From assembly GCF_000717275.1 (NCBI RefSeq), contig NZ_JNYV01000010.1, positions 84,212 through 148,211 of the forward strand: a DNA stretch of 64,000 nt, written 5' to 3'. Origin of the DNA: Kitasatospora arboriphila. GTDB taxonomy: Bacteria; Actinomycetota; Actinomycetes; Mycobacteriales; Mycobacteriaceae. Positions 48,165-63,302 of the stretch are shown piece by piece. The number at the start of each line of letters is the position of its first letter. The first letter of the stretch is position 1. The translations under genes and the position numbers were made by a program. The notes below the pieces were generated by a model that saw only the letters and a program-made list of their open reading frames with translations, ran no database searches and had not been told where the DNA came from.

Positions 48165-49366
48165 TGGCCAACAAGGTCCTTCGGATGGGCGCAGCGCACG
48201 GCGGTATCGCCGTAGGGCAGTTGCCATCCTTGTTCGTCGCAGCGGCCACAGGTGTGAATTGCCATCTGTTTTTGGCGGGCCTCATGTTCGCGGGCGTCGT
48301 CGATGGCGGCTGGTCGGTTGTGCAGGTCGTCGTGTTTGTTGAGGATCATGGCGAGCAGGGGGATGGGGCGGTGGGGGTTTGCTGCGATCCAGTTGCCGTT
48401 GCCGGTGAGTGTGTAGTCGCGGAGCAGTGCGTTGAGGTCGCGGTCGGTCCAACCGTGGGCCGCTGGTTTGGTGAGTACGTGAGACCAGGCGGCGGGGGAG
48501 TACTTGCGCGCCCAGTGCGGTGATTGCGGGTTCTGACGCCATTTGATGGCCAGTAACGCGCCTTTCTGCTCGGGTTCGGGACGGCGGCCCCTCCTCTCGT
48601 CGGGAGCTCGGTCGCGCGCAGCGCGGCCTTTGAGTTTTCCGGCATCGCCGGTGTGGGTTAGTGAGTAGCTACGGGGGTGGGAGGTACGCCCTAAAGGGCG
48701 CTCTACGAGGTGGGGTGCCGCTTGGGTGTGACCTCGGCGTTTATCCACAACCTGCACGCCGTGGAGGGCGTAGACGCTGGCCCAGCCTTGGCTGCTGTCT
48801 CCGACCCGGTGTGAGGCCAGTCGTTCGCCTAGGGTGCGTTGGCGGCCGCGCAGGATTTCGGTTGCAAGGCCCAGGTGCACGAGGACTTTGCGGGCTCGTG
48901 AGACGGTGCGTGGTTTGTATCCGGTGATGCGGGCGATCAGCTCTACCGTCGGCCGGCAGTTGCGTCCGGTCCCGAAATCGGCATGCACTGCGTGTGCGGC
49001 GGCAATCTTCACCAGTGTTTTGAGCGCGATGTCGCTCTTTCGGGAGGTTCCGTGCGCGCCGATCAAGGGCCGGATCCGGTCGTAGTGCAGGGCATACGCA
49101 ACCTGAACGTCCCAGGTGAGCCACCGCTCAGCGGTATGCCAGCAGGGGACGCCGGCGTAAGCGCGACGACCGACATCAAGGGCGATGCGGTCACGTGTGC
49201 GCAGCACCTCGAGGATCTTCTCTTTGCTCGCTCCCGGCCGCGAACGAGCAACGATCGCGGTCAAGGGGCCGAAGCGCGTGGTCGCGTGACCGCGCCGGGG
49301 TTGCTTCGGAGAAGAACCGCAGTACACCCGCGGTTTGAGAACTAGGTCGGATTCTGTGTCCGACAC
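48161..49366 (-). CDS. Plasmid replication initiator (Rep)
   Basis: About 401 aa. Start uncertain: GTG 49366 (MSDTESDLVLKPR) is used here; the frame continues to TTG 49426. The middle has a winged-helix segment (RPTVELIARITGYKPRTVSRARKVLVHLGLA) as in replication initiators of actinobacterial plasmids, a linker rich in basic residues, and the C-terminal part (AWSHVLTKPAAHGWTDRDLN, WIAANPHRPIPLLAMILNKH) also typical, ending in a CGRCDEQGW zinc-finger-like motif. An exact DnaA box (TTATCCACA, 48741-48749) lies inside it. A candidate antisense RNA is encoded opposite its leader. Confidence 0.75.
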   Translation of the reverse strand: MSDTESDLVLKPRVYCGSSPKQPRRGHATTRFGPLTAIVARSRPGASKEKILEVLRTRDRIALDVGRRAYAGVPCWHTAERWLTWDVQVAYALHYDRIRPLIGAHGTSRKSDIALKTLVKIAAAHAVHADFGTGRNCRPTVELIARITGYKPRTVSRARKVLVHLGLATEILRGRQRTLGERLASHRVGDSSQGWASVYALHGVQVVDKRRGHTQAAPHLVERPLGRTSHPRSYSLTHTGDAGKLKGRAARDRAPDERRGRRPEPEQKGALLAIKWRQNPQSPHWARKYSPAAWSHVLTKPAAHGWTDRDLNALLRDYTLTGNGNWIAANPHRPIPLLAMILNKHDDLHNRPAAIDDAREHEARQKQMAIHTCGRCDEQGWQLPYGDTAVRCAHPKDLVGQ

Positions 49367-49380
49367 GTGATGTGCAGGGA

Positions 49381-49410
49381 TTGCACGCACAAAAGGGTGC
49401 GCGGTACCCT
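49381..49410 (+). promoter_or_regulatory. Promoter of the candidate antisense RNA
   Basis: TTGCAC (49381-49386), 18-bp spacer, TACCCT (49405-49410). Points rightward, against rep, with a start expected near 49417. Confidence 0.65.
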
Positions 49411-49416
49411 GAGACC

Positions 49417-49522
49417 TGTCTGGCAAGACAGTCCCTTCGGGGTCCGAGAGATCGAGTGTGGCGCTCGACTCTCAAGCTTTAGAAAGGCTCTCCGGCTCCA
49501 ACCGGAGAGCCTTTCGTTTTTT
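49417..49522 (+). ncRNA. Candidate antisense RNA controlling rep
   Basis: About 106 nt between a good promoter and an intrinsic terminator, with no ORF. Predicted structure: hairpin TGTCT/AGACA (49417-49430), a small CCC-UUC-GGG hairpin (49433-49441), a longer one built on TCGAG/CTCGA (49446-49474), and the terminator GAAAGGCTCTCCGG/CCGGAGAGCCTTTC (49482-49515) followed by six T (49517-49522). It is transcribed opposite to, and would overlap, the 5' leader of rep mRNA, the arrangement of copy-number-control counter-transcribed RNAs. Confidence 0.65.
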
Positions 49523-49552
49523 ACGAGTGCTCTGTCACACCATCCTGTGATG

Positions 49553-49759
49553 TCATGCGGGCAACCGAAGCTGCTGCTCGGCTGCTTTGAGGTCAGGCCC
49601 GATCATCAGATCTGGGCGACCGGCCTTCTCGCAGAACACATCTGCTGCATAACGCGAGTACGCCGAGTAGCCAGCTTCTTGGGCCAAGGCTTGAAGGTCA
49701 ACGGGCTCAGGCACACGAACGAGGTAACCCTTTCGGGGGCCGAGGGATCGGCGAGCCAT
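49553..49759 (-). CDS. Small basic protein, likely plasmid maintenance or antitoxin-like
   Basis: 68 aa from ATG 49759 with GAAAGGAC upstream. Sequence MARRSLGPRKGYLVRVPEPV then LQALAQEAGYSAYSRYAADV has the look of a ribbon-helix-helix N-terminal strand plus helices. Found upstream of rep on the same strand. No toxin partner is visible beside it. I do not recognise a named family. The flanking 49760-50098 shows no gene. Confidence 0.6.
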   Translation of the reverse strand: MARRSLGPRKGYLVRVPEPVDLQALAQEAGYSAYSRYAADVFCEKAGRPDLMIGPDLKAAEQQLRLPA

Positions 49760-50098
49760 GTGATGTCCTTTCTCTCCGAATCGAACTGAAAAGGAGCGCC
49801 AGGTCGAATACTGGCACGAATGTGTATCAGCTACAGCGAGCGACACGCGGTGTAGCTGATACAGAATGCGGGGGCTGCTCGATCAAACGTGATCCTGAGG
49901 GTCACGTTGCACGCACGACGACCCTGTGGTTTGCTTCTCCACGCAGACATTGGCATCCGATTGCCATGTCGGCACACCCCGGATCTTGGGATTCCAGACT
50001 CGGATGGTTAGACGCACTGGTCGGTCAGTCATTTTGTGACGACCGCTTTCCAGGGCGTCACTTCGTGCATCAACCATCCGGGGGGATTTATGGCGATA

Positions 50099-50584
50099 TT
50101 AAGCAGGCGTTCCAGTGGGACGGTTCCTCGCTCGCCGGTAAGCAGCGCGCAACTCAGTTTCGTTGACAGACAACGCATCCGCCAATGCGCGCGCGGTTTG
50201 CTCACTCAACTCAGCCTCGCCGCGCTCGATCGCACCGACCATCGTGGTGCTGATGCCGGCCGCAACTCCAAGCTGAGGTTGAGTCAAACCACGCAGAACG
50301 CGCCAGTCGCCAGGAAAACGTTCATCCACGGGAACGCTCACCAGCTCGGAGAGCGAAATATCCAGCGCGCGGGCAACACTGGCGAGAACGTCGACCTGGG
50401 GCGAGCGCACGCCCATCTCCCACTGGTACAGCGTCGTTCTTCCCACGCCAGCGATGCGAGCCAGCTCGCCCTGGGTCAGGCCAGCTCGCGTTCGAGCCTC
50501 CGTGAGGGCACTGGGGGAGAAGCCTCGCAGTACTCGACGGCTCACGGAACCGCTGCTAGGCACTGGGGCGTCATAGCTAGACAC
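50099..50584 (-). CDS. XRE-family regulator with two helix-turn-helix domains
   Basis: 161 aa. Two consecutive Cro/C1-type HTH units: LTQGELARIAGVGRTTLYQW (about residues 36-55) and LTQPQLGVAAGISTTMVGAI (about 100-119), so one chain may bind like a dimer. It diverges from the conjugation operon and two CACTAGA sites lie directly upstream of its start. A repressor of itself and of transfer is the natural reading, though the ligand or signal is unknown. Confidence 0.85.
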   Translation of the reverse strand: MSSYDAPVPSSGSVSRRVLRGFSPSALTEARTRAGLTQGELARIAGVGRTTLYQWEMGVRSPQVDVLASVARALDISLSELVSVPVDERFPGDWRVLRGLTQPQLGVAAGISTTMVGAIERGEAELSEQTARALADALSVNETELRAAYRRARNRPTGTPA

Positions 50585-50588
50585 TCTG

Positions 50589-50641
50589 CACTAGACCTCT
50601 CCTCGCAATCACTAGAGAACGCTTTGTTGAGATGTTATAGT
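50589..50641. promoter_or_regulatory. CACTAGA operators and promoter of the conjugation operon
   Basis: CACTAGA at 50589-50595 and 50610-50616 are 21 bp (two helical turns) apart, next to the XRE start. A rightward -10 TATAGT occupies 50636-50641. The site placement suits repression of both directions by the XRE protein. Confidence 0.55.
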
Positions 50642-50708
50642 GAGAACGATCTAGGAAGCGAACACTCTCCTGGAAAGAGGGTCTTCTTTCGAACGAACAA
50701 GCTAGAGA

Positions 50709-51006
50709 GACCGGAAACGTCGGTGAGTTGGCGCTCCGTACGACGTTCCCGGTCCCCTTAAACAAGGTGGTGCAGCTGTGCTGACACCGCCCTGAATTGC
50801 TCGACACCGAGTTCCTCTGAGATTTGGACGTCCTAAGGAACCCGGGGTCTATCAGCGACCGCTCCAACGGACTGCTGACCCTTCAAGGAGCCTCGAAAGT
50901 CGGGGGCGCCCTGGGAGAGGGCCTGATTTGCCGTCTGACCTCTCCCAGGGCGAGAAGCACCAAGTAAGTGTTCAAGATTTGCCGTCTAAACACTTGCCCG
51001 TTTTTT
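50709..51006 (+). promoter_or_regulatory. Structured leader of the conjugation operon with SD-sequestering hairpin
   Basis: Three hairpins follow the promoter. H1: GACCGGAAACGTCG/CGACGTTCCCGGTC (50709-50754), one mismatch. H2: CGCCCTGGGAGAGG/CCTCTCCCAGGGCG (50907-50952), 14 perfect pairs; its 5' arm contains the ribosome site GGGAGAGG and its loop the TTG start codon of the cutinase gene. H3: AAGTGTT/AACACTT (50966-50995) followed by TTTTTT (51001-51006). The loops of H2 and H3 both contain GATTTGCCGTCT (50925-50936 and 50976-50987). The region 50642-50906 has no gene. Confidence 0.65.
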
Positions 51007-52607
51007 GCTGCCGTTCAACAGCTTCCCGCCTCACCGCTTTACTCGCCGCCTTCCTCACCGTCGCGGCCGTCACGGTGGGCGCTGCTGCCGGGACGGCAGC
51101 GGCTGCGCCGAGCACGCCGGGCGGCTGCCCGACGCTGTATGTCCTCGGTGTTCAGGGCACGGGGGAGTCCTCAGAAGATGCTCCGGTCGACACTGACGGC
51201 GGGATGCTCGGGTCAGTGATGCGGCCGTTGCTGGCCTTGGCGGGGTCGAAGGTGGCCCGGGCATATGTGCCGTATCCGGCCGGGTTTGGTGGAGCGGTCG
51301 AGGGCGGCAAGGAACCGTACGCGGCATCGGTGACCACCGCGATGGACCGGTTGTCGTCGATGATCACTCAGATCGCCGACAAGTGCGAAGACACTGATTT
51401 CGCGTTCGCCGGTTACTCGCAGGGCGCGCACGCGGCGGCGAACGTCGCTAAACAGATCGGTGCCGGCAACGGCCCGATCGATGCTGACCGGGTCGCGGGT
51501 GTGGCCTTGTTCGGCAACCCGGCCCGCCCGACGAACGCACCATTGTTCCCCGGTGCATCGGATCAGACCGCCCCCGAACCGGCACCCGGTAGCAGCGGCG
51601 AATCGCTCGCTCAGATCCCCGCACCCCAGCAGGGTGAGGTGAGCGGCGGGGGAATCGGCCCCACGGCAGATCAGTCCAGCGGATACGGAGAGCTGTCCGG
51701 CCGAGTGATGGATCGTTGCGCGCCCGGCGATTTGGCGTGCGCTGCACCAGCGGACTCACCGATCGTGCATCTAGTGGCCAACATCGGTGGCCAGTCCGAA
51801 CTCGACCAGGCCGACCCGGTCGGCTCACTGACCTCCCTCGGTCAAGCGTTGGCGTTGACGTCGATCAAGGCCGGCGTCGAGGTCATCAACGAAGACGTCC
51901 AGGGTGAAACGCTGGCTGACCTGTCGTACTCACCGACCGAGACGATTTCTCAGCGACTGGCCACCGCCTCTGACCCGCGCACCCCGATGCCGACGATCCC
52001 CGAGGCGATCAACGCTGTGGTCAAGGTCGGCACCATCGGCTTCAACGCTGTCACCACGGTGCTGCGCACCACCTTCACTCCCGACACCATCGGCGCACTG
52101 GCAACGGTCGGCCTGGCTAATCCGCCTGCTGCCCTGGGCATTTTGGCCGCAAAGCTCGGTGCTGCGGTGGTGGACCTGGTGCCTCCGACCACGGTCAACC
52201 GGTGGGCCAACGAGGCCTTCGACGCGGTGAAGGCCAACGTCAAGGACAACGAAGAGCTCCTGGACGTGTCGACGATGATCAACTATTGGAAGACCACGGC
52301 TGCGCACGGCTCGTACACCAACGACGCCGCGACCACGACGGGGGCGAACTCGACCCTGTATGTGGCGCAATGGTTTGCAGCGTTGGCCAACGATCTCGCC
52401 GGTGACACGTTCACTCCGTACAACGCGGACGGGCTCCTGAACTACGACTCCGCCTCTCCGGTCTCTGGTGTCCCGGTGCCGTCGGTGCCCAGCTCGACCC
52501 CGGCGGTGTCGTCGTCCGAATCGCAGACAGACGAGCCCTTGACATCCTCGTCAGCGCCGTCGCTGCCGACGTTGCCTCGTCCCGCACTCACTGACAACGG
52601 TTCATAA
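50928..52607 (+). CDS. Cutinase-family serine hydrolase, first gene of the conjugation operon
   Basis: 559 aa from TTG 50928, the only start with a fair ribosome site (GGGAGAGG, 7 nt away); TTG 50979 or 50994 are alternatives. A signal peptide (RLTALLAAFLTVAAVTV ... AAAAP) precedes a cutinase domain with CPTLYVLGVQGTGESSED and the nucleophile elbow AGYSQGAHAAANV (Ser near residue 164). The catalytic Asp and His should be in the CAPGDLACAAP and SPIVHLV segments. A long C-terminal extension of about 250 residues ends in a Ser/Thr/Pro-rich tail. Such secreted esterases occur in transfer regions of actinobacterial plasmids and may open the mycolate or wall layer. No ATG or GTG start is available. 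Confidence 0.82.
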   Translation: MPSDLSQGEKHQVSVQDLPSKHLPVFCCRSTASRLTALLAAFLTVAAVTVGAAAGTAAAAPSTPGGCPTLYVLGVQGTGESSEDAPVDTDGGMLGSVMRPLLALAGSKVARAYVPYPAGFGGAVEGGKEPYAASVTTAMDRLSSMITQIADKCEDTDFAFAGYSQGAHAAANVAKQIGAGNGPIDADRVAGVALFGNPARPTNAPLFPGASDQTAPEPAPGSSGESLAQIPAPQQGEVSGGGIGPTADQSSGYGELSGRVMDRCAPGDLACAAPADSPIVHLVANIGGQSELDQADPVGSLTSLGQALALTSIKAGVEVINEDVQGETLADLSYSPTETISQRLATASDPRTPMPTIPEAINAVVKVGTIGFNAVTTVLRTTFTPDTIGALATVGLANPPAALGILAAKLGAAVVDLVPPTTVNRWANEAFDAVKANVKDNEELLDVSTMINYWKTTAAHGSYTNDAATTTGANSTLYVAQWFAALANDLAGDTFTPYNADGLLNYDSASPVSGVPVPSVPSSTPAVSSSESQTDEPLTSSSAPSLPTLPRPALTDNGS

Positions 52608-52655
52608 CATCCCAACCCATTCCCCACGGGGCTTCCCGAGGAGGGAGAAGGAATC

Positions 52656-53639
52656 TTGTTGAACGACAACACTGATGACTGGTTCGATGACTTCGCTCCG
52701 CTACCAGCGGGCCCCAGCGACACCCAGAGCGGTGATGACCAGTCGGTGGTATCTGCCGCACCAGATGCCGCCGACGTAGTGGGCAGCTCCGATCCCTCCG
52801 GAGACGAGCCCACGGGCGAGATCCCGGTGGTGGCGACCGACCGCGCCACCGCCACCACCGGGACACCCACCGGACCGGCCACCGACGCTGCAACCAGTCA
52901 GTGGGCATGGATTGCCGCACCAGAGCAACCCCCGGGCGCCGGCGGTTACGCCGATGACTTCGCCCCCTACGACGCCGAAGCATCAGAGCCACAACGGTTT
53001 CCGATGGACTACGCCACCCCTGCTGTGCAGCCGGTGGGGTCTGGCGCGCGTCCTGCACCCCGCCGCAGATCTAAACGCGGCTACGTCATCGCCGCCGCGC
53101 TGCTGGCGTGCGTGCTTGTCGTGGCCGGGATCGGCGCACTGCTGGCCTTTGGCGGCGGCGGACCCGGCAACTCCCCGACGACCGACATTCCCCAAGCCAC
53201 TCCGCAGAGCACGGTCAGTGTCGGCGTGCCTGCAGCACCAGTGGCACCGGCCCAGGATGCGGACTGCCCCAACCGCAGCGAGGACGGCGTGAGCACCGGA
53301 CGAGACCCCGGTGGCACCACCAGCGGCCCGGCGGTGATCAAAGCGTTTGAACATGCCTACTACGTCGAACGCAACGGTGCCAAGGCCCGCAGCTACGGCA
53401 CTGAGCTGGCCCGAATGGGCACAGCAGCGTCGATGCAAGCGTTCATCGACACCCAGTTGCCGCCGGGCACGACGTACTGCACTCGGATCACCGATCGCGG
53501 CGCTGGCCTGTTCTCTCTCGAACTGAGCGAAATCCCGCCTGGTGGAGGAGAACCGCTGCTCATTCGCCAGCTCGTCCAGACCGCCGAAGTCGAGGGGCGC
53601 ACCCTCATCACCGCGATCACCAAAGACACCAACCAATAG
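52656..53639 (+). CDS. Membrane-anchored conjugation protein, unknown function
   Basis: 327 aa, TTG start with AGAAGGA upstream. An acidic, disordered cytoplasmic part of about 140 residues, one membrane helix (RGYVIAAALLACVLVVAGIGALLAF), and an extracytoplasmic C-terminal domain of about 130 residues (GPAVIKAFEHAYYVERNGAK, MQAFIDTQLPPGTTYCTRIT) resembling NTF2/VirB8-like or DUF8176-type domains. Two cysteines in that domain could form a disulfide. Probably a periplasmic-side component of the transfer channel. Confidence 0.7.
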   Translation: MLNDNTDDWFDDFAPLPAGPSDTQSGDDQSVVSAAPDAADVVGSSDPSGDEPTGEIPVVATDRATATTGTPTGPATDAATSQWAWIAAPEQPPGAGGYADDFAPYDAEASEPQRFPMDYATPAVQPVGSGARPAPRRRSKRGYVIAAALLACVLVVAGIGALLAFGGGGPGNSPTTDIPQATPQSTVSVGVPAAPVAPAQDADCPNRSEDGVSTGRDPGGTTSGPAVIKAFEHAYYVERNGAKARSYGTELARMGTAASMQAFIDTQLPPGTTYCTRITDRGAGLFSLELSEIPPGGGEPLLIRQLVQTAEVEGRTLITAITKDTNQ

Positions 53640-53709
53640 CCATCACCCCCCGATCCGCCTATCACCGCTAGATCCCTTGTTCGACAACCAACGAAAGGCA
53701 ATACCGCTC

Positions 53710-54978
53710 ATGCAAACTCCACGTCACGCTCTACCCGAGACGCCGTGCAAGGCCCCACTTCCACGCGATGCGCATATGCCGGTGCGCGCCCGGGCGATGG
53801 CCGCTGTGGTGGTGGCCGCGGTCGCGATGGGCGGCGCGGGCGCGCTCGCAGGCCCAGCGTTCGCCGACCCCGAGCAGGGTGGTGTCACCAGTGAACCGGC
53901 ACCTGAACAGGGTGGCGTGATCGCCGAACCCGCCCCCGCACCGGCTCCTGCCCCAGAGCCCGCCCCCGCACCGGCTCCTGCCCCAGAGCCCGTGCCCGAC
54001 TACGGGCCCGGCCTCGTGCCGTCGCCGCAGTGGGAGACCGAACCGGTCATCTACACCGAACCGTCCGGTCCGCCGTCGACTCCGTACACCCCGCTTCCGC
54101 AATCGGCACCAGCAGCTCCTGCGCCCGCGCCGGTACAGCCCGCAGGTCCCATCGCTCCCATCCTGGTCAAGGACCCGGCCGCCGAGATCCGCGCAGGCAA
54201 CTACATCGTGGACCGCCCCGACTGGGTGTCGCCCGAAGCCGCGATCACCACCAACGAGTACATGGCCTACTTCGAGGCCGAAGCCGCACAGTACTTCGAG
54301 TCGATCGGCTTCCCCCGCAACGAAGCTGCACGCCGGGCCGCAGCGGCAGCGGCCGGCGCGGGCGTCGGCGGACTTGCCGGAGCGTTGGCCGCCGGCATTC
54401 CGACCGCCATCTTCTTCGGCATCGTGGGCGGTGTCGGCGGCGGCATCGTCGGCTCGGTCGTGCCGCCCACCCCCTTCAACATCCTGCCCGGTATCGGTAT
54501 CGGCGCTGGTGGTGGCGCAGCACTGGGCTTTGCTGCCGGCGCAGCGGCCGGTGGCGCAGCAGGCGCTCTGGCCGGTGGCCTGTTGGGGTGGGCGCTCGGC
54601 GCGGGCGACCCGAACGCAGACCCGGCCGCCCCCTGGGCGCCGGTACCACCGCCGCCCGCACCGTTGCCCAACCCCGGCGGTGATCAGTACCAGCTGGTTC
54701 TTGATGCGCCCGCCGCGTCCGATGCGGGTTTGCCAGCGGTCGACTACACCGTCGACACCGAGGGCGATGTGTCCTTCTCGACCAACATCGCCGGCATCCC
54801 GCCGATCAGCGGTGGGTGGACTGCGCAGCAGGCCGAGGCACCGCTGCAGGCGCTGGGCCCGCTCGAGCAGCCCGCCAAGGACGCGATTGCCGGGGCCACC
54901 AAGCAGATCGGTGACGGACTCACCCAGATCGTCGACGGCCTGCACATCGCCTACCCGCAGACCCAGCCAGCCCAGTAG
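53710..54978 (+). CDS. Secreted Pro-rich protein with Gly/Ala hydrophobic core
   Basis: 422 aa from ATG 53710; ATG 53776 (MPVRARAMAAVVVAAVAMGG) would give a more compact signal peptide. After the signal (AGPAFADPE) come repeats EQGGVTSEPAP/EQGGVIAEPAP and a PAPAPEPAPA region. Residues about 215-310 are a glycine-zipper-like hydrophobic block (GVGGLAGALAAGIPTAIFFG, IVGGVGGGIVGSVVPP, GGAALGFAAGAAAGGAAGAL) that could form a pore or membrane-inserting hairpins. The C-terminal domain is soluble. No family recognised. Confidence 0.7.
   Translation: MQTPRHALPETPCKAPLPRDAHMPVRARAMAAVVVAAVAMGGAGALAGPAFADPEQGGVTSEPAPEQGGVIAEPAPAPAPAPEPAPAPAPAPEPVPDYGPGLVPSPQWETEPVIYTEPSGPPSTPYTPLPQSAPAAPAPAPVQPAGPIAPILVKDPAAEIRAGNYIVDRPDWVSPEAAITTNEYMAYFEAEAAQYFESIGFPRNEAARRAAAAAAGAGVGGLAGALAAGIPTAIFFGIVGGVGGGIVGSVVPPTPFNILPGIGIGAGGGAALGFAAGAAAGGAAGALAGGLLGWALGAGDPNADPAAPWAPVPPPPAPLPNPGGDQYQLVLDAPAASDAGLPAVDYTVDTEGDVSFSTNIAGIPPISGGWTAQQAEAPLQALGPLEQPAKDAIAGATKQIGDGLTQIVDGLHIAYPQTQPAQ
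53931..53990 (+). repeat. Exact 30-bp tandem duplication in the Pro-rich gene
   Basis: A 30-base unit starting CGCCCCCGCACCGGCTCCTG is present twice without change (53931-53960 and 53961-53990), coding for PAPAPAPEPA-type repeats. Exact identity implies recent slippage. Confidence 0.85.
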
Positions 54979-55038
54979 CTCGACACCCGAGCCCGGGCGT
55001 CGGCCACACACAACATCACCAACCCGAGAGGGAGATTT

Positions 55039-55779
55039 ATGACAGCGACCAACAGCCCGTGGGGGTGGCTCGACAACAACGAGCCCACTCCCGCCGCAGT
55101 GGTGCCGCTTCCGCAACGGCCTCGATCGGTACCCACGGTGGCCGTGATCGGTGCCGCTGGGGGAGCGGGGGTCAGTGTCCTGTCGGTGTTGGTGGCCGAC
55201 GCCCGCGCCCGAGCTGGGCAGTCGGTGCTCTGGCTCGATGCCGCAGCCACACCGGGCGATGTCGCCGCCCGGATCGCTTCACCCGATGCCGCCAGTGAAT
55301 ACAGCGCTGGTGGTGCACTGCTGCGCTCGAGCGAGGGCCTCGATGAGATTCCCTCGCAGGCCATCTCGACCGGCGGGTCGGTCATCGTCGATGCCGGGGT
55401 GGTGGACAAAGGCTCTGCGTGGCTGACCTCTACCACCGCGGTGGTGCTGGTGATCGCAGCCAGACCCGACACCGCCAACCGGTCCCGGTCAGGACTGCAG
55501 ATGCTCGCCGCCGCCGGCGTACTTGAGCACTCCACTGCAGTGGTGGCCTGCCTGGACCCGTGGGCCAGTCACCTCGTCGGACAAAGGCTCGTGCAGTCCC
55601 TGACCGCCCGTATGGGCCGAGTTCTGCTGTGGGACTACGACCCCCACCTGGGGACCGGCGGGCCGATCGACCCCACCCGGCTCGCTTCCTCGACCACCAC
55701 AGTGGTCGAGCACCTAGCCGGCCTACGCACCACCGCGGACCAACACGACAACGATCTCGCTGCGGAGGCCAACTCATGA
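55039..55779 (+). CDS. MinD/ParA-fold protein with degenerate P-loop
   Basis: 246 aa. The pattern VAVIGAAGGAGVSVLSVLVADARA is a P-loop position without the lysine, LWLDAAATPGDVA resembles Walker A-prime, and SVIVDAGVV resembles Walker B. So a MinD-type fold that probably does not hydrolyse ATP in the usual way. The next gene has the same design, and the two overlap by 4 bases. A role in positioning or regulating the transfer machine is inferred. Confidence 0.65.
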   Translation: MTATNSPWGWLDNNEPTPAAVVPLPQRPRSVPTVAVIGAAGGAGVSVLSVLVADARARAGQSVLWLDAAATPGDVAARIASPDAASEYSAGGALLRSSEGLDEIPSQAISTGGSVIVDAGVVDKGSAWLTSTTAVVLVIAARPDTANRSRSGLQMLAAAGVLEHSTAVVACLDPWASHLVGQRLVQSLTARMGRVLLWDYDPHLGTGGPIDPTRLASSTTTVVEHLAGLRTTADQHDNDLAAEANS

Positions 55780-56378
55780 GCGCCGCCTACGACCATTACC
55801 CATCCGAGCAACCGGCCACGACCCCGGGCACTGTGACGTGGCGGCGCGATCCTCTGCCGGTGACCGGCCCGTACCCGCCGTTGTTCGCGGTGATGGGCGC
55901 GCACGGTTTCGCCGGCACCACGACGTTGGCGCAGATGTGGGCACCGGCCGCCGACACTGGGACGTCCTGGCCTGCGCACCGCGCCACCACCCAACTGGTC
56001 ATCGTCGCCGCCCGCGCGACCATCGCCGGTATCCGCGCAGCCGCCCACGTGCTGCGCGCGGCCGAACGCGGCGACATCCCTGACGGGGTCCAGGTGTGCG
56101 GACTCGTGGTCGTCGCCGCCCGACCCGGCAACTGCCCCAAAGAAATCACCCGCTATGCCAGCACCGTCTCCGAGCTGGTACCGCACCGCTACAACGTCGA
56201 CTGGTGCGAGCCGCTGATGTGCGCGCCCGAACCTCACCGCCTCCCGGTCTGGACACCGCCTCGGCCCGGTGATCTGCCGCCACCGAAAAAGGCCCAGTTC
56301 CCCGACGTGGTCCCCAAACAGATCGCCGCAGTCGGACAGCAGATCTGCACCGACCTTCTCAACGACCACAAACCCTGA
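55776..56378 (+). CDS. Second MinD-like/DUF6668-like protein
   Basis: 200 aa, ATG overlapping the previous stop. LFAVMGAHGFAGTTTLAQMW is a degenerate P-loop (GAHGFAGTTT, no lysine), followed by TQLVIVAARATIAGIRAAAH and VCGLVVVAARPGNCPKEITR. It resembles actinobacterial DUF6668-type proteins. With its neighbour it may form a heterodimer. Function unknown. Confidence 0.65.
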   Translation: MSAAYDHYPSEQPATTPGTVTWRRDPLPVTGPYPPLFAVMGAHGFAGTTTLAQMWAPAADTGTSWPAHRATTQLVIVAARATIAGIRAAAHVLRAAERGDIPDGVQVCGLVVVAARPGNCPKEITRYASTVSELVPHRYNVDWCEPLMCAPEPHRLPVWTPPRPGDLPPPKKAQFPDVVPKQIAAVGQQICTDLLNDHKP

Positions 56379-56427
56379 CCCACGCATCACCCGCGCCATC
56401 GCTACCCACCCAATAGAGGAGAACACG

Positions 56428-56727
56428 ATGAAAGACCTGCTCGCACAGACCAACACCCAGATCGCCCTGTACCTGAGTGAAGGCCCAACGAACCCCAGTC
56501 CGGCACCACCTCCGGGGTCCGACAAGTTCTTGACCATCGTGTCCTGGATCGGCTGGGGCGCCACCCTCGCCGCGATCGTGGCTCTGGTCGTTGCCGGCGC
56601 TCGTTTCGGTTTCCAGAAGTCCCACGGCACTGCATCAAACGAGGAAGCCGGGAAAGTCGCCTGGACTCTCATCGGCTGTGTCCTGATCGCCATCTCCGGG
56701 AGCCTCGTCGGGGCCTTGGTCGGATAA
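56428..56727 (+). CDS. Pilin-like (TrbC/VirB2-type) membrane protein
   Basis: 99 aa, ATG at 56428 with GAGGAG upstream. Two hydrophobic helices (FLTIVSWIGWGATLAAIVALVVAGARFGF and AWTLIGCVLIAISGSLVGALVG) separated by a short polar loop, the layout of VirB2/TrbC pilins and of their Gram-positive counterparts. Position just before the TrbL-like gene supports a type IV secretion role. Confidence 0.72.
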   Translation: MKDLLAQTNTQIALYLSEGPTNPSPAPPPGSDKFLTIVSWIGWGATLAAIVALVVAGARFGFQKSHGTASNEEAGKVAWTLIGCVLIAISGSLVGALVG

Positions 56728-56763
56728 CTGTTCTCCCACACCACGAATCGAGAAGGAACATGC

Positions 56764-57024
56764 ATGAGCACCGTGATTGCCGAGGGCATCACCCGCGACG
56801 ACCTCAAAGAGTTCTGGACGGCGCTGAACTACCTGCTGTGGTTCGGGTGCGTGATCGCCATCATGCGGATCATGTGGCTCGGCGGGCATGGCCATTCCCC
56901 AGGCCGCCGAAGGACCCACCGCCAACCCGCAAGCCCTGGCCCCGACCGGGTACGCCCACAACGGACCCGGTGCTGCGCTGGCCGCGATCTCCTCGACCAT
57001 CCGGATGTCAGTGGCCGACGATGA
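56764..57024 (+). CDS. Small membrane protein of the transfer operon, C-terminus possibly frameshifted
   Basis: 86 aa. The first 40 residues (STVIAEGITRDDLKEFWTAL, YLLWFGCVIAIMRIMWLGG) look like a genuine conjugation membrane protein. After HGHSPG the sequence turns into Arg-rich, low-quality protein that overlaps the next gene for 137 bases. A frameshift near 56885 may have cut this gene, or the overlap may be real but short. Confidence 0.55.
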   Translation: MSTVIAEGITRDDLKEFWTALNYLLWFGCVIAIMRIMWLGGHGHSPGRRRTHRQPASPGPDRVRPQRTRCCAGRDLLDHPDVSGRR

Positions 57025-57361
57025 CCAGTGGGCACTGATCGCCGGTGCACTCGCTGCACCCGGCCCCGGCCGCGACGCCTGGTCGATCGAGCGGTCCCGG
57101 ATCTCCATCACCAGCGACGTCCCCGCCGGTCAAGCGCCGACAGTCCTGGGTTACACGGTCACCGAGTACACCCCCGAGCGGGCGGTCATCGCGATCATCA
57201 CCCGCCAACCCGATCAATCGCTCACCTCGACGACCACCACCGTCGTCTGGACCCCGCCCGGTGATTGGCGACGACTGATTCCGGATCCACAGACATCGCC
57301 CGCCAACCCGGTAGCCGTACTCGATTCGGTTCCACCGCAGATGATCCCGCTACCCGCCTGA
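56888..57361 (+). CDS. Conjugation protein with small beta domain, unknown function
   Basis: 157 aa from ATG 56888, without a clear ribosome site. Predicted beta-rich domain (WSIERSRISITSDVPAGQAP, VLGYTVTEYTPERAVIAIIT, TSTTTTVVWTPPGDWRRLIP) resembling soluble domains of VirB8/TcpC-like transfer proteins. It may once have been fused to the membrane segment encoded at 56764; together they would make a normal membrane-anchored protein. Confidence 0.65.
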   Translation: MAIPQAAEGPTANPQALAPTGYAHNGPGAALAAISSTIRMSVADDDQWALIAGALAAPGPGRDAWSIERSRISITSDVPAGQAPTVLGYTVTEYTPERAVIAIITRQPDQSLTSTTTTVVWTPPGDWRRLIPDPQTSPANPVAVLDSVPPQMIPLPA

Positions 57362-57397
57362 CCGTGGCCCTGCACCCACCGCTGAGGAGAACACTTG

Positions 57398-59728
57398 ATG
57401 GGAACACCACCCCTGGCCACCGCGCCCCACTACGACGACGACCCGAACACGCCACGGCCCTGGCACCGCCGGCACTGGGTCATCGTCGCGGTCCTAGTCG
57501 TGGTGTCCCTCGCCATCGCCACCGCGACCTGGTGGGGACTACGTGGCGACGACAACGACAGCGCCGCTCCCACTCCGCCGCCGGCGGCGAGCACACCCCC
57601 GGTCAGCAACGGGCAACAAGGATATTTCGCCGACACCACTGATCGGTTCGGTCAACAGATCCGGGTGCCGCGCGACCCGTCAGGATTGGCGCTCCCTCAG
57701 GTGAACCCGAAAGCGACCCGGGGTCTCAGCGACGCGGCCTCCGGGATCCAGTGGCAGCAGATCTACGGCCGCGGTGTCGCCGTCTTCACCACCTCAGATG
57801 GCCCAACCGCCATCGGGGCTGACGGACTCGCGCAAGGAATCTCACGAACACCGCAAGGATCGGTGATCGCTGCCAGCCAGGTCCTGGGTCGTGTGTTCTA
57901 CGGCCCCCCGCAGGTGCGGCAGAAAGTCATCGCGGAGCAGATAATCGGCCCGCCATCGGCGATCGCGATGCTCACAGACCTGCAGCTGCCAACTCGCCAG
58001 TACCCCGCCGATTCATTTGTGCGAGTTGACCCGCAGTACACGGACACATTCTCGCGGGTGTCACTCGCAAGCGGTCCTAACCTAAGCGCAGACTCCTCGA
58101 CCGGTCAGTTTTACAGCGTGACCACCATGACGATGGTGTGGGATGCCGGCCGGTGGAAGTGGCGCATCCCGGACGACGGTTTCAGTGACGCGACCGCCTC
58201 CTGGCTGCGACGCCTCACCATTGCCGTCCTCGTAGCTCTGGCCTTGGCGGTCGTAGTGCCCTCTATCCCCACACCTGTGACGTCGCCCGGCGTCGCGCAC
58301 GCAGTCGACACCTGCGACATCGTCGGCCAGGCCGCCAACGTCCTGATTCCCGGCGTCGACGACAAAGTCTGCGATAAAGCCGTTGATGCGGCCGGGGCAG
58401 TATCTGACCCAGCTGGAGCAGTCAAAGACGCTGCCAACGACGGCTTTAAGTCGATGACGGAGTCGTTGGTCAATGGCTTCTCGAAGATGATCCAGCAGTC
58501 GTTGACCTGGTTTATCCAGTTACCGACACCGGCCGCCAATCAGTGGGACCCGGTGCAAGAAATTCAGCAGTGGACGGTGCAGATCCAGCTGTTGGGTCTA
58601 GCAGCATCGATTGTCGCCGGCGGGATCCGACTGCAACTGGCGAAGCGTCAGGCGGTGTACGCCGAGGGCGAGGAACTGTTCTTCTCGTTGCAGCGCGCAG
58701 TGTTCGGGGCGTGGATGTTCGGCGGCATCATGATCGGGTTGACCGCCGGCGTCGACAAGATCTCGACGAAGATACTCGAGCTGTCGGTGACCGATGGCAC
58801 CCCGGTCGAGGCCGCCAAGAACATGTTCGATGTCGCGAACATGATGGGCTACCTCGGCGTCGGCCTGGTCTTCGTCATCGCGGTGGTCGGGATCTTGGGT
58901 GCTCTGCTGCAAGCGATCTTGCTGGTGGCCCGCCAGTCCATGTTGATCGTGGTCGTGGCCATCATCCCGATCATCGGTGCCGCGTCGGGAACGAAGATGG
59001 GCAAGAACGCTTTCAGCAAGACCATCTCGTGGACCATCGCCCTGCTGCTGTGGAAACCGGTGGCCGCGTTGACCTATTCGGTCGCGTTCATGCTCGCCGG
59101 CACCAAATCCGATGACGGCGCCCAGATCCTGTACGGCGTGCTGCTGCTGACCTTGGCAGCGGCGGTGCTTCCGATGCTCACCAAGTTGGTGTCCGGCGGC
59201 ATGGCCATGTCCGGCGGCTCAGGGTTGCAGGCCGCGATGATGACGATGGGTGTGGTCGCCGCAGGAGGCTCGATTGCAGCTGCCGGTGCCGGGGGCGGCG
59301 CGGGGGCAGGAGCCGGCGCTGGGGCAACACCGGGCGGACCGGCCACGGGTGGTCAAGCCGGCGCTGGGGGAGTCCCCTCGGGCGGCGGCGGCGGTGGTGG
59401 TGGTGGAAACCGTGGCGGTGGTGGCGGTGGAAACACCGGCGGAGGCGGGCGCAACAGTTCCGGTTCTGGCAGCGGTGACCAGCAGGGCTCAGGTGGCCGG
59501 TCCAGCGCAACCCCCTCAGGTGCAACACCTACCGGCGCCGAGGCCGGTGCGAGCACACCGACCGGAGGAGCCAGCGGTTCCGGTGGTAGCGGCGGGTCGG
59601 GCTCGGGCGGCGGCGGATCAACGATGGCCGACGCAGTGAGCAACGTCTCGGGCGCAATGCAGATGTCACAAGCCGCCGAAGACTTCTTCGACGACAACGC
59701 CCCAGCGATGGCAGGAGAGCCCCGATGA
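57398..59728 (+). CDS. TrbL/VirB6-like conjugation membrane protein fused to an N-terminal VirB8-like domain
   Basis: 776 aa from ATG 57398 (AGGAGA 8 nt upstream). Residues 1-265: one membrane helix (VIVAVLVVVSLAIATATWWG) and an extracytoplasmic domain (IRVPRDPSGLALPQVNP, VFTTSDGPTAIGADGLAQGI). At about 267-300 an internal signal-peptide-like segment (WLRRLTIAVLVALALAVVVP ... SPGVAHA) starts a TrbL-type part with at least six membrane helices (ILLVARQSMLIVVVAIIPII, ISWTIALLLWKPVAALTYSV). The C-terminus is a long Gly/Ser/Thr-rich tail. Normally these are two proteins; no stop separates them here. Confidence 0.82.
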   Translation: MGTPPLATAPHYDDDPNTPRPWHRRHWVIVAVLVVVSLAIATATWWGLRGDDNDSAAPTPPPAASTPPVSNGQQGYFADTTDRFGQQIRVPRDPSGLALPQVNPKATRGLSDAASGIQWQQIYGRGVAVFTTSDGPTAIGADGLAQGISRTPQGSVIAASQVLGRVFYGPPQVRQKVIAEQIIGPPSAIAMLTDLQLPTRQYPADSFVRVDPQYTDTFSRVSLASGPNLSADSSTGQFYSVTTMTMVWDAGRWKWRIPDDGFSDATASWLRRLTIAVLVALALAVVVPSIPTPVTSPGVAHAVDTCDIVGQAANVLIPGVDDKVCDKAVDAAGAVSDPAGAVKDAANDGFKSMTESLVNGFSKMIQQSLTWFIQLPTPAANQWDPVQEIQQWTVQIQLLGLAASIVAGGIRLQLAKRQAVYAEGEELFFSLQRAVFGAWMFGGIMIGLTAGVDKISTKILELSVTDGTPVEAAKNMFDVANMMGYLGVGLVFVIAVVGILGALLQAILLVARQSMLIVVVAIIPIIGAASGTKMGKNAFSKTISWTIALLLWKPVAALTYSVAFMLAGTKSDDGAQILYGVLLLTLAAAVLPMLTKLVSGGMAMSGGSGLQAAMMTMGVVAAGGSIAAAGAGGGAGAGAGAGATPGGPATGGQAGAGGVPSGGGGGGGGGNRGGGGGGNTGGGGRNSSGSGSGDQQGSGGRSSATPSGATPTGAEAGASTPTGGASGSGGSGGSGSGGGGSTMADAVSNVSGAMQMSQAAEDFFDDNAPAMAGEPR

Positions 59729-59925
59729 GCGCCAAACACAACACTTTTCGCGCACTCGCGATTCCTATCACCCCCCTCACGGTGGGTGTGACCGCCGGCA
59801 TGGTGCTGCTGCTGGTCGCAGCGTTCGCGCCGGTCCCCGCCGTCTGGGTGCTCGTGCTGTACGGCGCGGGCATGGCAGCGGCTGCGGCCGGGGTCCTCGT
59901 GCAACGTCGGCGGGTGCGTCGATGA
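59725..59925 (+). CDS. Small two-helix T4SS protein (VirB3-like)
   Basis: 66 aa, ATG overlapping the previous stop and its own stop overlapping the next start. Two hydrophobic helices (LTVGVTAGMVLLLVAAF and VWVLVLYGAGMAAAAAGVLV) and a basic end. The size and place, directly before the SCO6880-like gene, fit VirB3/PrgI-type subunits. Confidence 0.7.
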   Translation: MSAKHNTFRALAIPITPLTVGVTAGMVLLLVAAFAPVPAVWVLVLYGAGMAAAAAGVLVQRRRVRR

Positions 59926-61415
59926 GCAGCAACGCCGACCGCAACGTGCTGATCCTCTACGGACGCTGGGAGCGACCAAGCACCACGGGCCTGTACGGCA
60001 TGACCTGGGGTGTGACCGTCTTCGCCGGCGGCCTGGTCATCGCGAACATTCTGCTGTTTCTGATCACGAATTCGTTAGCTGTCATGGCCGTGTCGGTGCC
60101 GTTCTCGGCGCTGTTGGTCGGCCCACTAGTGGCCCGTATCGGTGGCCGAACAGGATGGGAGTTACTGATGTTGCGAGGCCAGTTCTGGTGGGCAAAGTGG
60201 CGGGGTGAGACCACCTTTCGTGGTGGCGCATTCGGCGTGGTTCCAGGGGTGGGCCGGATGCCCGGTATCGCCGGCGACACCCGCCTATACGAGTACGAGC
60301 TCCGCAACGGAGACCGGTTCGGCTTGGTGCATTTGAAGGCGAAAAACCATTTCGCTGTGTCCTTTTCGATTCAGCCTCGCGGCCAGGAACGGGTCGATCA
60401 GTGGCAGATCAACGACTGGGTGTCGGGGTGGGGAGACTTTCTGGCCCAGCTCGGCGGGGACCGCGGCGCAGTCGGCGCCTGCGTCGTTGTCGAGTCGGTA
60501 CCCGATAACCGCTCCCGGATCACCGCAGAGGTCAAACGCATCACCCACCCGGACGCACCGGCCTATGCCCGGCAAGTGATGGCCGAGGCCGCCATGGGAT
60601 CAGAAGCAGCCATCGTGCGCTCAGAAATCCGGTTGACGTTGACGTTCGGCCGGATGCGCGAGGCAGCAGGCAAAGAGGTGGCCGATCAGGCCGCCGAGAT
60701 CGGCCGGAAGATGTCGTCGCTGATGGCCGCGTGCGCCCATGCCGGCCTTGATGCCACCCCGATGACAGCAGGGGAGTGGTGCGTGGCCCCGACACGTGCC
60801 TATAACCCGCAGCTGACCGAAGAACTCGAGCAGATCACCGGTGTCAGCGGCGAGGACGCGCTGCGCTGGCAAGGTGCGGGACCGGTGACCTCGGAAAACA
60901 AGTGGGACCACCTGGTGCACAACGGGTACCGATCGATCACCTGGGAAATGGCTACAGCCCCGGCAGGCCAGGTGCCCTCCAATGTGCTGCGGCCATTGTT
61001 GATTCCGCGCGCTGACGTACGCCGCAAACGGGTCGCGATGATCTACCGCGTCCACAACACGGCCGAGGCGGTCAAACTCGTCGACTCGGACTACCGCGAG
61101 GCCCTCGCCGCCGAACAGTCCAAAAAGGGTGTGGTGGCCGCCAGTGCCACCGTCCGGGTGGAGAACACCGGAGCGGCCCGCCGCGAACAAGCCCTGGGCG
61201 CGGGATTGACCCGTTTCGGGATGCTCGTGACCGCCACCGCCGGCCCTGATGAGGACCTGCCGTCCATCCGCGCCGAAATCGAAGGCATGGCCGACAGCGC
61301 TCACATCGGGTTGCGGCGCTGCTACGGCTACCAGGACGCCGCGTTCGCTGGCTCTCTGGGAATCGGGATCATCCTGCCCGAATACGCCTCCACCAGCTCC
61401 AAGATTTCCGCCTGA
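59922..61415 (+). CDS. SCO6880-like conjugation protein
   Basis: 497 aa. Two N-terminal membrane helices (GVTVFAGGLVIANILLFLIT and LAVMAVSVPFSALLVGPLVA) followed by a large cytoplasmic domain (LLMLRGQFWWAKWRGETTFR, WQINDWVSGWGDFLAQLGGD, PTRAYNPQLTEELEQITGVS). This matches the actinobacterial SCO6880 family, which resembles the N-terminal part of VirB4 and pairs with a separate ATPase gene, here the next one. No P-loop inside, as expected. Confidence 0.87.
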   Translation: MSSNADRNVLILYGRWERPSTTGLYGMTWGVTVFAGGLVIANILLFLITNSLAVMAVSVPFSALLVGPLVARIGGRTGWELLMLRGQFWWAKWRGETTFRGGAFGVVPGVGRMPGIAGDTRLYEYELRNGDRFGLVHLKAKNHFAVSFSIQPRGQERVDQWQINDWVSGWGDFLAQLGGDRGAVGACVVVESVPDNRSRITAEVKRITHPDAPAYARQVMAEAAMGSEAAIVRSEIRLTLTFGRMREAAGKEVADQAAEIGRKMSSLMAACAHAGLDATPMTAGEWCVAPTRAYNPQLTEELEQITGVSGEDALRWQGAGPVTSENKWDHLVHNGYRSITWEMATAPAGQVPSNVLRPLLIPRADVRRKRVAMIYRVHNTAEAVKLVDSDYREALAAEQSKKGVVAASATVRVENTGAARREQALGAGLTRFGMLVTATAGPDEDLPSIRAEIEGMADSAHIGLRRCYGYQDAAFAGSLGIGIILPEYASTSSKISA

Positions 61416-61454
61416 CCAGGCTTTCTGCCGCATTCTTGAGAAAGGCCCACCCAC

Positions 61455-63302
61455 GTGACCCTCACCGGCCGCCACAGCACGCTCGACGCTCCCGCCCAGT
61501 CCGGACCGGGCATACAGACCGCAGACCGTGACCCCGATAGCGACATCGACCCAGACGCCAGAGACACCTCCCCGGCGTTCGTGCGGATCGGTGGGGTCAA
61601 GATCCGCACCGAACGAGCTTGGCAGGAGCTCAACCAGGCGGCACTCGAACCAGGCTGGAAGGGGCGGCGTGCACGTGCGGCGCTGCGCCGTGAGATCCGC
61701 GCACGTCTGCTCTCGATCGAGCGAGTCACCGAGTTTGGTGGTTTCGATCGGCCGATCCCCGCGTCGGGAGGTCGAGGCTTTTCCGGGTGGGGCGGTGGCC
61801 GGATGCGATCTATCGCCCGAATGCCGGAGTGGCGGGCCACCTCCACCCAGGCCGCCGGCCTGTGGCCGTTCTCAATCGGCGCATCCGCACCGATGCTCGG
61901 CACCCCGCTGGGGGCGCACGCCATCACCGGCGAGGATGTCGGTTTCGATCCGATCGTCTGGTTCGACGACGCCGGGTTGATCAACGCACCCATCACTTTT
62001 GTGTTGGCGCTCAACGGTTTCGGCAAGTCGTCGCTGGTGCGGCGCATGTCCACCGGCGTGATGGCCCAAAACCACACGTCCCTGTTCATGGGCGACACCA
62101 AAAGCGAGTACTCCGACCTGACCGCGCACGTCGGCGGCCAGCACATCAACCTGTCCTACGAATCCGGCACCATCAACCCGCTCGGCGTCGGAGCCCTCGG
62201 ATCGGTCATCGGCCGCCTCGACGCCGCGATCCTCGACACCACCGACCCGGACCGCATCACCACCCTGCACGCCCTGAAAACCGCTGTATGGGAGCAGGTC
62301 CGCGCCCGCCAGGTGCAGATGGTGATGGGGCTGGTGCAGCTGGTCCGGGCGATGCCGGTCCGCGATTTCGAGGAAACCCTAGTGCGGGTGGCCCTGGAAC
62401 ACCTCTACTCCACCGCCGGCGGCGGATTCACCCCCGACCGCCCGCCGATCCTGTCGGATCTACACGCGGTCATCGACGGCAACAGCAACGTGCTGTGGCC
62501 CAAAGTCGGCGCCGACACCGTCGAGCAGTACCGCGACATCACCCGCGCGCTGCGCCAGTCGTTGACCGCCCTGATCGACGGCAACTTCGGCCGCGTGTTC
62601 AACGCGCAAACGTCTCAGCCCATCGACCTGGACGCACCCGCGATCTGTGTCGATCTGTCTGGCATCGGAGAATCCGACAGCAAGCTGCTCGCCGCAGCGT
62701 TGATGGTTTGCTGGTCAGACGGGTTCGGCGCGGTCGAAGCCGCGCACATCCTCGCCGACGCCGGACTGGCACCACGACGCAACTTCCTCGTCGTCATGGA
62801 CGAGCTCTGGCGGGTGCTCCAAGCCGGCGCCGGGATGGTCGATCGCGTCAACGCGTTGACCCGCCTGAACCGGACCATCGGCACCGCGCTGATCATGATC
62901 ACCCACACGATGAAGGACCTCGGCGCGTTCGAGTCGGCCGCCGATGTGAACAACGCCCGCGGCTTCATCGAGCGGGCACCGGCGAAGATCATCGGCCCGG
63001 TAGGCCCCGACGAGATCGCCCTGCTCAAACAGGTCACCAAGTTCACCACCACCGAAGAGGCGTGGCTGACCTCTCTGGCCTCCACACCCCCGCCCTCACC
63101 GGCGACGCTGCGCAAGATCAAACGCGGTGAACGCCAAAAGCCCCAAGGTCTGGGCTGTTTCCTCCTCAAGTACGGCACCTCCGACGAACAGATCGGCATG
63201 CCGTTTCGCACCACCTTCACCGCCACCGAGCGCGGTAAAGGCGTCCACAACACCAACACCCGCTGGGGACGAGCCGGCGCGGCGAGCGGGCAGGACCAAT
63301 GA
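61455..63302 (+). CDS. VirB4/TraE-like conjugation ATPase
   Basis: 615 aa, GTG start. Walker A ALNGFGKSSLVRRM (about residue 187), a GDTKSEYSDL motif, INPLGVG, and Walker B FLVVMDELWRVL (about 448) with MITHTMKDLGAF after it, as in VirB4/HerA-type ATPases. It should power assembly or substrate transport by the transfer channel together with the SCO6880-like protein. Complete and normal in length. Confidence 0.88.
   Translation: MTLTGRHSTLDAPAQSGPGIQTADRDPDSDIDPDARDTSPAFVRIGGVKIRTERAWQELNQAALEPGWKGRRARAALRREIRARLLSIERVTEFGGFDRPIPASGGRGFSGWGGGRMRSIARMPEWRATSTQAAGLWPFSIGASAPMLGTPLGAHAITGEDVGFDPIVWFDDAGLINAPITFVLALNGFGKSSLVRRMSTGVMAQNHTSLFMGDTKSEYSDLTAHVGGQHINLSYESGTINPLGVGALGSVIGRLDAAILDTTDPDRITTLHALKTAVWEQVRARQVQMVMGLVQLVRAMPVRDFEETLVRVALEHLYSTAGGGFTPDRPPILSDLHAVIDGNSNVLWPKVGADTVEQYRDITRALRQSLTALIDGNFGRVFNAQTSQPIDLDAPAICVDLSGIGESDSKLLAAALMVCWSDGFGAVEAAHILADAGLAPRRNFLVVMDELWRVLQAGAGMVDRVNALTRLNRTIGTALIMITHTMKDLGAFESAADVNNARGFIERAPAKIIGPVGPDEIALLKQVTKFTTTEEAWLTSLASTPPPSPATLRKIKRGERQKPQGLGCFLLKYGTSDEQIGMPFRTTFTATERGKGVHNTNTRWGRAGAASGQDQ

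Follow-up and report, generated by a model that had tools for sequence, protein, structure and literature searches.

Two hairpins at the start of a presumed transfer operon, H2 and H3, belong to a hairpin family on plasmids of the soil actinobacteria Williamsia, Gordonia, and Rhodococcus. The members share an apex in which GA/UC closes a 6–8 nt loop of the form UU(U)G(n)nCG, and they carry it on stems of unrelated sequence. The sequences show the family itself, its gene-proximal location, its polarity, and its conservation at the level of nucleotides. We see about an even chance that H2 and H3 are copies of a cis-element of the leader RNA, with a loop read by a putative trans-acting factor that sets expression jointly. 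Class A members have the loop UUGGCG or UUUGGnCG and lie soon after the promoter. Class B members mostly have UUUGCCG and lie shortly before the cutinase gene or in the small open reading frame (ORF) that precedes it.

Twin hairpins in the window

The window is the whole stretch of DNA analyzed, 64,000 nt. It holds two class B hairpins, scored here with R2, a 38-position model built from 14 hairpins chosen partly for having stems.

50907..50952, forward strand: hairpin H2 (class B), 14 pairs; R2 E 3.9e-7, R2 training sequence
50964..50997, forward strand: hairpin H3 (class B), 7–9 pairs; R2 E 9.8e-6, R2 training sequence

The arms of H2 (50907–50920 and 50939–50952) pair at 14 of 14 positions around an 18-nt loop. 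The stem of H3 pairs AAGTGTT (50966–50972) with AACACTT (50989–50995), and its loop spans 50973–50988. GATTTGCCGTCT lies in the H2 loop at 50925–50936 and again in the H3 loop at 50976–50987, 51 nt apart and in the same frame. These letters, positions, 14 perfect pairs, and spacing agree with the earlier note, which had described twin hairpins with one 12-mer loop. RNA folding predicts both hairpins in the window leader (z −4.3 vs shuffles) and likewise in the longer leader of genome G008 (z −3.1, 20 shuffles).

Perfect 14-nt inverted repeats with a spacer of 3–25 nt occur at four distinct places in the window (5 register hits) and were absent from 40 shuffles. Exact 12-mer repeats at 12–60 nt spacing number 39 when overlapping ones are counted, which we grouped into 7 places, against a shuffle mean of 0.45 and a maximum of 3 overlapping. 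The loop 12-mer with up to two mismatches was found 7 times against 4.3 expected and is not over-represented. Since both kinds of repeat recur in the window, neither alone is unique to H2 and H3 there. The weight rests on the combination of hairpin and repeated loop and on its conservation. Two other elements were observed nearby. A terminator-like perfect 14-nt inverted repeat with a 6-nt spacer (GAAAGGCTCTCCGG...) lies at 49482–49515, and the imperfect palindrome GGTGGTGCAGCTGTGCTGACACCGCC lies at 50766–50791; genome G007 (L011) has one like it.

The window holds an incomplete copy of the leader

In G008 the order is a divergent XRE gene, a promoter-like site, hairpins H1 and Hb, a small ORF with H2 and H3 inside, and the GGAAGG...ATG of the cutinase gene. 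The window has the following features.

50099..50584, reverse strand: XRE regulator, transcribed divergently from the leader and with two HTH_3 stretches; 263 plasmid records contain homologues
50613..50641, forward strand: promoter-like site TAGAGA-17-TATAGT with TG, predicted by consensus alone (1 site vs 0.2 expected)
50709..50754, forward strand: hairpin H1, apex GAG-TTGGCG-CTC, 13/14 pairs; class A-like by eye, no R2 match
50803..50849, forward strand: hairpin Hb (class A), loop motif GATTTGGACGTC at 50821–50832; present also in G008
50888..50889, junction: 113 nt of G008 absent, a piece holding the small-ORF start and its Shine-Dalgarno
50889..50994, forward strand: small-ORF remnant, fused in frame to the cutinase gene in the window
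50994..50995, junction: 226 nt of G008 absent, namely the small-ORF remainder, the cutinase Shine-Dalgarno, and the A of its ATG
50995..52607, forward strand: secreted cutinase-like protein, first large operon gene (PF01083, E 6.9e-16)
52656..63302, forward strand: remaining genes of the presumed transfer operon, for membrane proteins and, at 61455–63302, an ATPase-like protein

The two upstream hairpins, H1 and Hb, are related to H2 and H3 and were absent from the earlier note. In G008, Hb matches R2 at E 4.4e-4, with its sequence being part of the training set. The promoter-like site would put all hairpins within the transcript. The ATPase-like protein is presumably VirB4-like, a label given by its motif. 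Pfam returned no hit over the cut-off for 52656–53636, 55039–55776, or 57395–59725.

The window is otherwise almost identical to G008 (100% over 49000–50888 and 50889–50994, 99.95% over 50995–56886, and 99.91% over 56882–58000). A third piece, 254 nt of G008, is absent at 56882–56886. The three absent pieces (113, 226, and 254 nt) lie within 9 kb of DNA that is 99.9–100% identical elsewhere. The genome itself is a 45-contig draft with a second copy of the region, contig C15, about 90–91% identical, and at least 73 nt of leader are the same in both copies. For these reasons an assembly fault is possible. It seems at least as likely as a real deletion, and the window departs from the usual arrangement in either case. 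C15 itself is without another part of the leader, including the H2 5′ arm, and keeps the right part. It also seems to have its own gap near the counterpart of 56882–56886, and further assembly faults are possible between the two similar copies. An argument that the breaks fall where the block common to C10 and C15 ends proved circular and was set aside, since that block stops at the contig breaks themselves.

The incomplete copy bears directly on how H2 and H3 are read. GGGAGAGG falls within the H2 5′ arm, a TTG (50928) within its loop, and TTTTTT at 51001–51006 follows H3. From these letters, which do allow it, the earlier note had proposed a switch in which H2 sequesters the only Shine-Dalgarno and the start codon of the cutinase gene and H3 terminates transcription. 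We consider this very improbable. Shine-Dalgarno, TTG, and T-run appear to be part of H2 and H3 because the small ORF is without its ends and the part between them runs on into the cutinase gene. The window gene has TTG (50995) where relatives have ATG. G008, C15, G006, W. soli, and W. limnetica all have a separate GGAAGG...ATG for this gene further downstream, and their H2 and H3 fall within another ORF. The T-run consists of cutinase codons brought near by the absence of DNA, and the terminal pairs of H3 draw on bases past the junction at 50994|50995. Other Williamsia H3 copies seen continue with CAC... or GGATC and have no T-run. The sole such run noticed, TTTTT, follows a class A hairpin of R. 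qingshengii RL1.

A hairpin family across plasmids

Carriers of hairpins with this or a similar apex on stems of other sequence are W. soli, W. limnetica, W. sterculiae, W. herbipolensis, an uncultured Williamsia, Gordonia paraffinivorans, G. tangerina, G. sihwensis, G. lacunae, Rhodococcus opacus, and R. qingshengii RL1, together with G003, G006, G007, G130, and G164. A stem-blind search used loop sequences alone, with no stem condition, over 67 loci (494,921 bases). It gave 38 distinct loop sites against 3.1 per shuffled-loop set, a count inflated by the choice of loci, which are related leaders, several of them fetched by hairpin, with a loop list drawn partly from stem-selected hairpins. 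The stem fraction is therefore the fairer measure: the stem score reached at least 8 at 23 of the 38 sites and at 4 of 185 shuffled-loop sites. Loci L131, L135, and L138 played no part in making the loop list. The remaining 15 loops score below 8, and the second-gene site in C10 scores 4. All 27 loops with a stem score of at least 7 lie on the coding strand of the following gene, upstream of it or early in it, judged from listed gene positions.

In the R2 alignment 83% of cells are paired, compared with 58% after shuffling and no more than 46.7% after sliding, and double-change cells number 41 vs 13.5. These pairing figures are biased upward since the models A3 and R2 were made from hairpins picked partly for their stems. 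At E ≤ 0.05, R2 matched 13 of 401 family genomes, seven of which had supplied training sequences and six of which had not. In 12 of the 13, a cutinase gene, the small ORF, or a gene for a similar secreted protein was recognized beside the match. The exception is G271 (L058, E 0.0455), where no transfer genes were recognized in the letters shown. In a draw across the class, in which genomes of the same family were numerous, 2 of 394 matched at E ≤ 0.02, one being the window's own genome; G455 (L139) matched in this draw at E 0.0198.

Fourteen plasmids were chosen only by their XRE homologue. R2 at E ≤ 5 matched six of them with seven matches, two with E < 0.01 and the rest weak (E 0.3–3.1), and each of the seven falls within the divergent leader, on the strand of the operon. 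With scores exactly equal to those of the G. lacunae pair, the pair of Gordonia hongkongensis is not a separate case. R2 found no match in the other 8 of the 14 plasmids, in the XRE-chosen plasmid L015, or in G007 among 12 handles. Among 38 cutinase loci there were nine R2 matches at E ≤ 0.11, with L083 added on a 14-pair stem, and the other 28 had no accepted hairpin match. R2 also gave weak matches in L121, L123, and L118 (E 1–4.5). L108 (E 0.3) and the stem hits in L128 and L133 were rejected, and another stem hit, in L129 (position 211), was left out of the count. Hits of the A2 profile in genus g6 and some other genera look like chance, and two pattern scans of viral contigs gave 0 hits.

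In the leaders of L043, L009, and L011, ACCCTTCAAGGGTAGGYGG recurs about 70 nt past class A hairpins and may be a second conserved element. A loose TAGGCGG-like pattern occurs within 150 nt downstream in an uncontrolled count of 30 out of 43 hairpins; these overlap one another and are not independent cases. Pairing of the loop with this downstream motif was tried by eye and was unsupported.

Stems vary and keep their pairing

In the copies measured, stems run over 7–18 positions, and 5′ arms from different loci share a mean identity of 40% (270 pairs). The earlier note had called for a covariation search in relatives. Across the family the search bears the idea out, with stems that vary and keep pairing beneath a conserved loop, and it is weaker within Williamsia alone. 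There, a stem-blind alignment of five H2–H3 sequences pairs in 89.6% of cells vs at most 52.2% when slid. It contains two double-change pairs, both in H3, and H2 hardly varies. At slide −3 its covariation score (0.096) exceeds that of the structure itself (0.087).

Stem positions are Watson-Crick at 338 of 358, G-U at 5, and A-C at 11; stems were delimited by Watson-Crick pairs, so that only the comparison of G-U with A-C is unbiased. This wobble test for the RNA strand does not favor RNA. So few G-U pairs are odd for an evolving RNA stem and leave a role in single-stranded DNA open. The hairpins might then act during conjugation, for example as priming, early-expression, or transfer-protein sites. 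We regard this as unlikely. The nearly pure Watson-Crick stems and the association with plasmid transfer genes fit it. So does the strandedness of the six contigs with at least two separated sites (G000 C10, G000 C15, G008 C1, G008 C2, G002 C26, and G003 C11), each of which carries them on one strand, with the outlying sites in G008 C1, G002, and G003 being weak R2 matches (E 0.6–2.6). Against it, a strand-transfer site would not need to lie on the coding strand of the following gene, as all 27 stemmed loops do, and the stems have no promoter or core sequence in common. Action as RNA is favored because the hairpins lie downstream of the predicted promoter, on the coding strand, and near gene starts.

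The very perfect arms and several copies per plasmid could also come from mobile or self-templating DNA repeats, REP-like or recombination-site-like, with arms made by template switching and the loop serving as a transposase or recombinase site. Leaders of paralogues do differ by whole blocks. However, the copies are few, gene-proximal, and one-stranded, and the junctions between the window and G008 show no sign of exchange between two motif copies. With stems mostly unrelated, there is no shared repeat body. This origin is improbable.

Hairpins inside a coding sequence

The small ORF of G008 (L006, L073), between the XRE and cutinase genes, encodes 121 aa with the pattern C-x8-C-x10-C-x3-H. 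H2 and H3 lie in frame inside it, and the loop 12-mer encodes DLPS. Wherever a class A hairpin and the small ORF both exist, the hairpin precedes the ORF. The strict pattern C-x8-C-x(10-17)-C-x2-GH was found in 6 of the 38 cutinase loci and in several other loci, and small proteins with C-x8-C-x(10-17)-C-x3-H occur in several genera. A relaxed Cys-His pattern was absent from 10 of 11 further leaders, and the hit in L131 looks spurious. The small protein has 14 homologues in the protein collection, one labeled "hypothetical protein" and the others without a name. It had no hit in Pfam or NCBIfam and no relative among solved structures (best E 0.35), and its AlphaFold2 model has a mean pLDDT of 59. 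A plasmid tblastn search with the G008 small protein as query gave no match. We take the C-x8-C-x(10-17)-C-x3-H arrangement to resemble a CCCH finger, and the small-ORF protein as binder of the loop is a lead only.

At shared residues the codon is kept in 172 of 196 cases (0.88) over the hairpins vs 174 of 331 (0.53) in the remaining ORF (permutation p 0.001), with the near-identical pair G005/G002 omitted. Adding W. sterculiae gives 221 of 264 vs 234 of 451. In that species one H2 pair is kept through a change of Arg AGA to AGG on one side and of Leu CTC to Pro CCC on the other. Read from the sequences, this compensatory pair change is one that costs an amino acid.

These data bear on whether the hairpins are a by-product of a DLPS peptide repeated in the small ORF, with the protein alone conserved. 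H2 and H3 are in frame, and DLPS recurs in the homologues, as this account would have it. Yet such loops are also present beyond the ORF, in class A hairpins, before the second gene described below, and in the class B hairpins of G130, G. tangerina, and G. lacunae; the class B hairpin of G050 overlaps the ORF end with its 5′ arm. Codon choice is also frozen over the hairpins beyond the rest of the ORF, and the Arg codon stays AGA or AGG in all six sequences of the small-ORF alignment. We hold this account very improbable and reject it.

Further copies and a proposed reader of the loop

The 11-mer GATTTGCCGTC has six sites in the 5.75-Mb genome, all of them hairpin loops, three on each of two contigs. 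On each contig it occurs twice in the leader and once before a second gene (MSSSTAINFES...), the protein of which matched no Pfam family over the cut-off. Both leader copies in C10 are clear hairpins, and the second-gene site there matches R2 at E 0.004 despite its poor stem. At L071 4048–4085 the same loop was observed before the gene of a ~125-aa protein (MSSSTAINFES...), with an inverted repeat, GAGGGACCACCTGGTTCCTC, just upstream. Further down the operon, G003 and G008 contig C1 have another copy, on a 14-pair stem in G003; the gene that starts ~70 nt beyond it looks cutinase-like by eye.

Recurrence of the loop on unrelated stems, on other plasmids and before several genes, fits a common trans-acting reader. 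To this extent the loop-reading regulator of the earlier note stands; its alternative form, an exact antisense RNA encoded elsewhere, does not. With GATTTGCCGTC restricted to the six hairpin-loop sites, no exact 11-nt complement exists outside hairpin loops in the genome. An RNA antisense to these loci themselves, or one that matches only in part, may exist.

We infer RNA as the acting form, together with the binder, the XRE role, and the direction of control. In the mechanism that we propose, the XRE repressor would control the leader promoter, and a stem of almost any sequence would present the conserved apex on the nascent leader RNA. A putative trans-acting factor, more probably a protein than an RNA, would bind the apex and thereby set the expression of the transfer genes and of the separate plasmid gene together.

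Relation to known systems and significance

Rfam gave no match over the gathering score in the window or in 11 relatives, and at E ≤ 5 its four hits on 49500–53000 are all below gathering. The antitermination RNAs (lambda nut boxB and HK022 put) and the LoaP leader hairpins are likewise short hairpins at operon starts, with a recognized loop and sometimes in pairs. They differ in that the present stems share no sequence from genus to genus. LoaP-type antitermination was set aside: the search for NusG paralogues of the LoaP kind gave none, PF02357 occurring at one place only in the genome, on contig C4, which is not among the contigs with hairpins.

CsrA/RsmE sites and phage coat operators also place a conserved loop on a variable stem of the 5′ region, in several copies and with several targets. 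The CsrA motif is ANGGA, whereas the loop here is UU(U)GnCG within GA/UC and lies off the cutinase Shine-Dalgarno in intact copies. Frpo/ssi and oriT hairpins share the plasmid transfer context, near-perfect hairpins, and one strand; the present hairpins, in contrast, are gene-proximal and have no stem or promoter sequence in common. In T-box leaders the likeness is that UUGGC/UUGCC within the loop could pair with an anticodon loop, but there is no Rfam T-box match here. To our knowledge, transfer-gene control on these actinobacterial plasmids has been little studied. The titles and abstract openings returned by a full-text literature search, which covered few subscription papers, describe no such element.

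Our findings may point to a loop-coded RNA regulon on the conjugative plasmids of Williamsia, Gordonia, and Rhodococcus. In this tentative reading, to which we give somewhat less than an even chance, one RNA-binding factor of plasmid or host would recognize the GA-UU(U)GnCG-UC apex wherever it occurs among several transcripts, and so switch the transfer genes jointly, with classes A and B as two response grades. The hairpins are also an example of structure kept within a coding sequence at the price of an amino-acid change. The 38-position model and the sites known from plasmids of Rhodococcus and Gordonia make it directly possible to look for the binder and for an effect on transfer.
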